In this document: in pieces, positions 22,080 to 22,215 of the stretch
Position numbering within the stretch: the stretch's first letter is position 1
How the letters are laid out: each line of letters starts with the position of its first letter
DNA from: Thermoplasmata archaeon
Lineage (GTDB): Archaea > Thermoplasmatota > Thermoplasmata > Lutacidiplasmatales > UBA184
Assembly: GCA_021817605.1 (NCBI GenBank)
Contig: JAKAUN010000015.1
Location: 62,001-126,000 of the forward strand
Direction: 5' to 3'
DNA: 64,000 nt
The notes under the pieces: generated by a model
Told to the model about the DNA's origin: nothing
Databases searched by the model: none
What the model saw: only the letters and a program-made list of their open reading frames with translations
Program-made: the position numbers and the translations under genes

Positions 22080-22182
22080 TAGCGGGGCATGGATTTGAAC
22101 CATGGATCTACGGGTTATGAGCCCGTCGGGATTTCAGGACGGACGGCGACGCCGACCGCTTTCCTGACTACCCTACCCCGCT
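22080..22182 (-). tRNA. Initiator tRNA-Met (CAT) with an insertion in the D-loop
   Basis: Cloverleaf read from the minus strand: acceptor AGCGGGG/CCCCGCT with A1-U72, anticodon arm ACGGG-CTCATAA-CCCGT, and T arm CATGG-TTCAAAT-CCATG. The A1-U72 pair and the three G-C pairs in the anticodon stem are the archaeal initiator signature. Removing 28 bases from the D-loop gives a normal 75-base tRNA with D-stem GGG/CCC and the conserved AGTCAGGAAAT loop. No CCA is encoded. A TATA box precedes it at the usual distance. Confidence 0.92.
22135..22162 (-). other. Putative 28-base tRNA intron in the D-loop
   Basis: The extra bases start and end beside AAA, so the exact borders can slide by three. They form a hairpin: CGG-T-CGGC with GCCG-T-CCG around a three-base loop. 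This is flanked by a second pairing TCAGGA/TCCTGA with an unpaired AAG, similar to a relaxed bulge-helix-bulge. Archaeal tRNA introns are mostly at position 37/38; D-loop introns are non-canonical. Confidence 0.7.
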
Positions 22183-22206: not shown

Positions 22207-22215
22207 GTATATGAG
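22207..22215 (-). promoter_or_regulatory. TATA box of the initiator tRNA gene
   Basis: The minus strand reads CTCATATAC, centred about 28 bases before the tRNA 5' end. Confidence 0.6.

Follow-up and report, generated by a model that had tools for sequence, protein, structure and literature searches.

The DNA analysed here, termed the window, is a stretch of 64,000 nucleotides from a Lutacidiplasmatales-type member of the Thermoplasmatota, represented by a high-GC soil metagenome-assembled genome. Positions 22080-22182 of the window, singled out in an earlier prediction made from the sequence, proved on reading to be the exact extent of a complete, archaeal-type initiator tRNA-Met(CAT) gene encoded on the minus strand (22182..22080) and carrying a 28-nt insertion in its D-loop after the conserved GG. 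The gene reads AGCGGGG TA GGGTAGTCAGGAA [intron AGCGGTCGGCGTCGCCGTCCGTCCTGAA] ATCCCG ACGGG CTCATAA CCCGT AGATC CATGG TTCAAAT CCATG CCCCGCT A on that strand, and comprises the following features.

22080..22182, minus strand: initiator tRNA-Met(CAT) gene with D-loop intron, 103 nt, mature form 75 nt (sequence, fold and ARAGORN on the spliced form)
22161..22182, minus strand: exon 1, AGCGGGGTAGGGTAGTCAGGAA (5′ strand of the acceptor stem, 5′ strand of the D-stem, D-loop to position 20a)
22133..22160, minus strand: 28-nt intron, AGCGGTCGGCGTCGCCGTCCGTCCTGAA, with predicted ends
22080..22132, minus strand: exon 2, from position 21 to discriminator base A73 (sequence and ARAGORN on the spliced form)
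22163..22167, minus strand: exon strand UCAGG of the central helix H, including G18 and G19 (invariant in 64/64 distinct sequences)
22134..22138, minus strand: intron strand CCUGA of helix H (four of the five pairs in 64/64 sequences, the closing pair in 62/64)
22160..22162, minus strand: 5′ splice-site bulge AAA (AAA in 62/64 sequences, AAC in one and ATA in one)
22131..22133, minus strand: 3′ splice-site nucleotides AAU, facing UAG in a 3x3 internal loop before the D-stem (fold)
22139..22159, minus strand: intron hairpin GCGG-U-CGGC / GCCG-U-CCGU (covariation in 44 relatives of equal length)
22208..22214, minus strand: TATA-like box TCATATA, 26-32 nt upstream of the tRNA 5′ end

Every arm outside the insertion is that of an archaeal initiator, as had been proposed, with an A1-U72 pair, three G-C pairs adjoining the anticodon loop and the anticodon CAT. 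The TATA-like box is conserved, positions -29 to -25 being A or T in 85-100% of 82 distinct upstream sequences. The boundary of exon 1 was placed by the rule that cutting occurs after the second bulge nucleotide and by comparison with intronless relatives, giving a predicted spliced junction of AGTCAGGAA|ATCCCG; moving the intron ends by 1 or 2 nt would yield an identical product in most species. The two parts of the gene are collinear, neither lying apart as in split tRNA genes nor standing in reversed order as in permuted ones.

The unspliced gene is poorly recognized by standard tools. Its match to Rfam was weak (30.6 bits) with a misread D-arm, an ARAGORN search of the window missed it, and ARAGORN run on the locus only, with introns allowed, miscalled it as tRNA-Arg. 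Once the 28 nt were removed, ARAGORN called a full-length tRNA-Met(CAT); the spliced product, of 75 nt as anticipated, has a D-loop as long as that of intronless relatives. The predicted precursor fold is a cloverleaf from whose D-loop the insertion protrudes as a hairpin, with a folding energy of -50.6 kcal/mol; dinucleotide-shuffled sequences gave -33.3 +/- 3.4 (z = -5.0; 0/200 as good).

The same predicted design, consisting of the D-stem, a 3x3 or similar internal loop, the UCAGG/CCUGA helix, the 5′ bulge and the intron stem, recurred in all 64 distinct genes available. The helix between exon and intron has 5 bp in 62/64 sequences and 4 bp plus a G-A apposition in the other two; the 5′-side bulge is 3 nt across the predictions, with one nucleotide more in a few. 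The interior of the intron is free in sequence and in length (26-32 nt), the splice-site nucleotides are fixed, and where the first and last intron nucleotides vary (AAC; ...CUGAG) the predicted mature sequence is unchanged. In the 44 copies of equal length the intron stem is 93.4% paired, above the 28-73% of slid pairings, and shows 30 double-change cells against 8.8 +/- 2.4 in 1000 shuffles, a control that ignores relatedness as the slid-pairing control does not. The hairpin with flanking pairing described in the original prediction is thus borne out by fold, helix and covariation alike.

In this predicted structure, removal of the insertion restores the cloverleaf, a helix of about 4 bp joins the 5′ exon to the 3′ part of the intron, and a 3-nt bulge is followed by an intron helix, as in bulge-helix-bulge (BHB) signals. 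A strict hBHBh′ motif has its second 3-nt bulge directly flanked by an exon helix; the minimum-free-energy structures have the 3x3 UAG/AAU internal loop at that place. Because the 3′ site sits in this internal loop, the motif was classed as relaxed HBh′/BHL: the 5-bp exon-intron helix, the 3-nt 5′ bulge and the internal loop together are, as modelled, the relaxed bulge-helix-bulge signal of the archaeal splicing endonuclease. The order of helix and bulge might appear reversed; we rejected this reading, the order being normal under the published BHB rule that the 5′ exon sequence (the anticodon, in 37/38 introns) pairs with the intron (PMC4090602).

To follow the insertion in related genomes, initiator genes were compared across the family. 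The insertion occurred in 66/66 family genomes with a readable initiator gene, belonging to genera g1, g6 and g7 (the 64 distinct sequences above), and in 0/10 genomes of the sister genera g2-g5, whose gene reads AGTCAGGTCATCCCG or close variants, equal in length to the spliced form AGTCAGGAAATCCCG. The exons are almost identical across the 64 genes. A sequencing or assembly error was rejected, the same insertion with a variable interior being present in 64 distinct initiator genes from independent assemblies. On a tree of the splicing endonuclease EndA, a single branch separates the intron-bearing from the intronless genera (support 100/100; 0/500 shuffles as clustered). Since the insertion is present throughout three genera, absent from four sister genera and explained by one change on the EndA tree, this distribution indicates that the intron was gained once, in the g1/g6/g7 lineage.

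Among 400 genomes of the class, the insertion was confined to g1/g6/g7 and to two genomes from a single other family (f17); the other pattern matches did not read as initiator tRNA. Those two genomes (G116 and G126; L207 and L208) carry a separate, longer intron at the same place of the initiator D-loop, of the form CAGG-AAA...CCTG-ATA. The first nucleotides of the G126 intron, ATCCCGA, repeat the beginning of exon 2, a hint of origin by short duplication. Screening 84,980 species genomes for initiator genes whose D-loop holds 10-40 additional bases yielded 68 stretches. Almost all come from Thermoplasmata MAGs, among them Candidatus Lutacidiplasma silvani and UBA184; one Lokiarchaeota and two records named as bacteria with the same initiator type also appear. 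Because the gap range was narrow and the D-stem fixed, the scan leaves room for initiator D-loop introns in other archaea. The bacteria-labelled contigs (L068, L122) bear an archaeal, Lutacidiplasmatales-type initiator tRNA and are probably misbinned or misnamed. The initiator tRNA of the Lokiarchaeon (L086) has a D-loop insertion of its own. By sequence, the introns of f17 and of the Lokiarchaeon apparently represent separate gains.

The initiator is far from the only interrupted tRNA gene of its genome. A census built from searches and fetched stretches counted at least 16 non-canonical tRNA introns, the initiator intron among them. Two more lie in D-loops, in tRNA-Arg(GCG) (L287, around C12:78911, minus strand; GUAG-CUA-CGG...CCG-CUAC-AGU) and in tRNA-Lys(TTT) (L313; CCGG-UUG...CCGG-CAC), the latter at nearly the same place as in the initiator. 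Thirteen further introns interrupt the T-loop after GTTCRAA (L028, L029, L030, L305-L314), namely in Asn-GTT, Arg-TCT, Glu-CTC, Ser-GCT, Gln-CTG, Ala-GGC, Ser-GGA, Gly-TCC, Ser-CGA, Arg-TCG, Asp-GTC, Lys-TTT and His-GTG; they are short hairpins (26-34 nt in the 12 measured singly), many of which end in GAAC or GAAT, complementary to the T-loop GTTC. tRNA-Lys(TTT) thus has both a D-loop and a T-loop intron and was called by ARAGORN only after removal of both. With the insertions taken out, 15/15 interrupted sequences tested were called correctly; unspliced, 12/15 were not found and 3/15 were found only in truncated form. Many tRNAs that seem to be absent from the genome turn out to be interrupted. 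In genomes of this kind, tRNA callers lacking an intron model will overlook the initiator along with roughly one third of all tRNA genes. Several further tRNAs have introns at 37/38, and tRNA-Trp(CCA) (L278, C8:105144-105223 and upstream) is interrupted after the anticodon by a long insertion that may comprise more than one intron. T-loop introns were also present in G003, whose initiator is intronless, and in G174 of another family; on these grounds they look older than the initiator intron.

Taken together with the machinery described below, these features make it very probable that the D-loop of the single initiator gene is interrupted at 20a/21 by a non-canonical archaeal tRNA intron that EndA and RtcB remove. 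In the precursor, the 3′ end of the intron (CCUGA) would pair with the D-loop UCAGG to form the relaxed HBh′/BHL motif, the endonuclease would cut after the second bulge nucleotide on each side, and RtcB would join the exons into the 75-nt initiator tRNA. G18 and G19 are required for the tRNA elbow; before splicing both would be locked in helix H, and the unspliced form should be inactive because the elbow cannot form.

The stable stem of the insertion, conserved over three genera, could also suit an element that the mature tRNA retains in a larger D-arm, for instance an identity or initiation-factor element. This is very improbable: the paired D-loop segment holds the very G18 and G19 that the elbow needs, the interior varies freely while the splice-site nucleotides are fixed, the 13 T-loop insertions of the same genome cannot all stay in working tRNAs, and the intronless sister genera make do with a standard D-loop.

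Under the intron reading, splicing would bear on translation as a whole. The original prediction had taken the initiator gene to be single-copy, and no second initiator gene, intron-free or otherwise, was found in the genome by a pattern search allowing 3 mismatches, in agreement with the full tRNA list. The genome is a draft of 16 contigs, and one might suppose that the interrupted gene is decayed or unused and that another initiator serves translation; given that a genome with a listed completeness of 100% yields a single initiator match, that the exons are nearly identical across 64 distinct genes and that the TATA box is conserved, we regard this as hardly credible. Splicing of the single initiator would then be essential, in line with the claim first made for this gene. 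A single-copy initiator tRNA that must be processed has precedents among permuted and split genes (PMC3218864): maturation of the initiator needs the splicing endonuclease in Thermofilum pendens, where the gene is single-copy and permuted with its junction at 59/60, and in Nanoarchaeum equitans, where it is split at 37/38. Unlike these, the gene in the window is collinear with a D-loop intron.

The genome encodes RtcB and a single EndA, whose 353-aa ORF contains two PF01974 units; PF01974 matches elsewhere in the genome, as expected of a separate subunit, were absent. With two fused units and no separate subunit gene, the enzyme is of the alpha′2 type. It can be aligned along its full length to the A. 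fulgidus alpha′2 enzyme (1R0V, 2GJW), with the Y, H and K of the catalytic triad matched in the second unit, and shares the two fused units with the Archaeoglobus and Thermoplasma enzymes (1R0V, 2GJW, 2OHC), from which it differs in length (353 aa vs 289-305 aa) and in natural substrates that apparently include relaxed D-loop motifs. In alignment with the A. pernix enzyme, YGSRVGHRLELSL has no lysine-bearing CSL/ASL loop before the LSLIE strand of the catalytic unit, and the A. pernix CSL stretch is without counterpart. We had expected the intron-bearing genera to possess a different type of EndA, but the family alignment showed none, all 40/40 EndAs, from genomes with and without the initiator intron, sharing the two-unit, loop-less build. 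The f17 genomes have a two-unit EndA too. In the Lokiarchaeon the endonuclease is encoded by two separate genes, one of which has a lysine-bearing, CSL-like insertion at the position of the CSL.

Two points weigh against removal by EndA and RtcB, namely the position of the 3′ splice site in an internal loop rather than a 3-nt bulge and the rating of alpha′2 enzymes as narrow (PMC6379350, PMC4033280, PMC12397907). A relaxed motif in a genome whose EndA is devoid of the loops linked to relaxed cutting may speak for another route, self-splicing or a different nuclease, an idea with next to no probability since 28 nt is far below any known self-splicing intron, the exon-intron helix and 5′ bulge of the insertion are exactly those of an EndA substrate, and EndA and RtcB are both present. 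Group I introns have a ribozyme core and usually exceed 200 nt; a group I intron was rejected at 28 nt with no Rfam intron match.

The kind of intron proposed here is already known. Introns of archaeal tRNAs have been established at 20/21 and at 59/60, as have HBh′ motifs (PMC4090602). Chan et al. describe non-canonical introns as almost exclusively crenarchaeal (PMC3218864). The original prediction needs the qualification that the host belongs to the Thermoplasmatota, not to the Thermoproteota, and that its initiator intron is one of at least 16. The 20/21 and 59/60 introns known mostly from Thermoproteales and other Crenarchaeota (PMC4090602, PMC3218864, PMC8450103) resemble the present ones in their D- or T-loop position and BHB/HBh′ pairing, in being short hairpins and in interrupting several tRNAs per genome; the system in the window differs in its Thermoplasmatota host, its one alpha′2 endonuclease without a CSL and its fixation in the initiator tRNA of a whole clade. 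Heavy tRNA intron loads at non-canonical positions are also known in the Asgard Atabeyarchaeia and Freyarchaeia, an unrelated lineage whose load is higher still, at 92-95% of tRNA genes (PMC11291895). The description of Lutacidiplasmatales mentions tRNAs but not introns (PMC9287336), and a partial literature search returned no report of tRNA introns in this order.

What is new is the lineage, the intron load and the conflict with the view of alpha′2 enzymes as narrow. Reviews describe alpha4 and alpha′2 enzymes as cutting canonical BHB motifs only (PMC4033280), alpha′2 has been rated narrow (PMC6379350) and broad cutting tied to CSL/ASL loops (PMC12397907); one group maintains that homodimers cut BHL motifs too (PMC8707768), and the A. 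fulgidus alpha′2 enzyme acts on full-length pre-tRNA to excise a 37/38 BHL intron (PMC6379350). From the genomes at hand, we lean slightly towards the view that a plain alpha′2 EndA without CSL/ASL naturally removes relaxed HBh′/BHL D-arm introns from essential tRNAs across a Thermoplasmatota lineage. Non-canonical tRNA introns have so far been tied to Crenarchaea and to co-evolving loop-bearing endonucleases; if a loop-less alpha′2 enzyme does cut relaxed introns, loop acquisition would be no requirement for intron diversification, contrary to current models. Because a high intron load coexists here with such an enzyme, the co-evolution idea becomes testable, and the lineage offers a natural test of what the alpha′2 class can cut. 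Randau and Soll, as cited in PMC4033280, proposed that split tRNA genes are thereby shielded from integrating elements; a similar benefit might extend to the present genes, which is speculation.

Within the EndA family, the residues preceding the catalytic tyrosine region are mostly LVVKTGFKYG in the intron-bearing genera and LxPKTGFKYG in the sister genera with an intronless initiator, a V/P difference.
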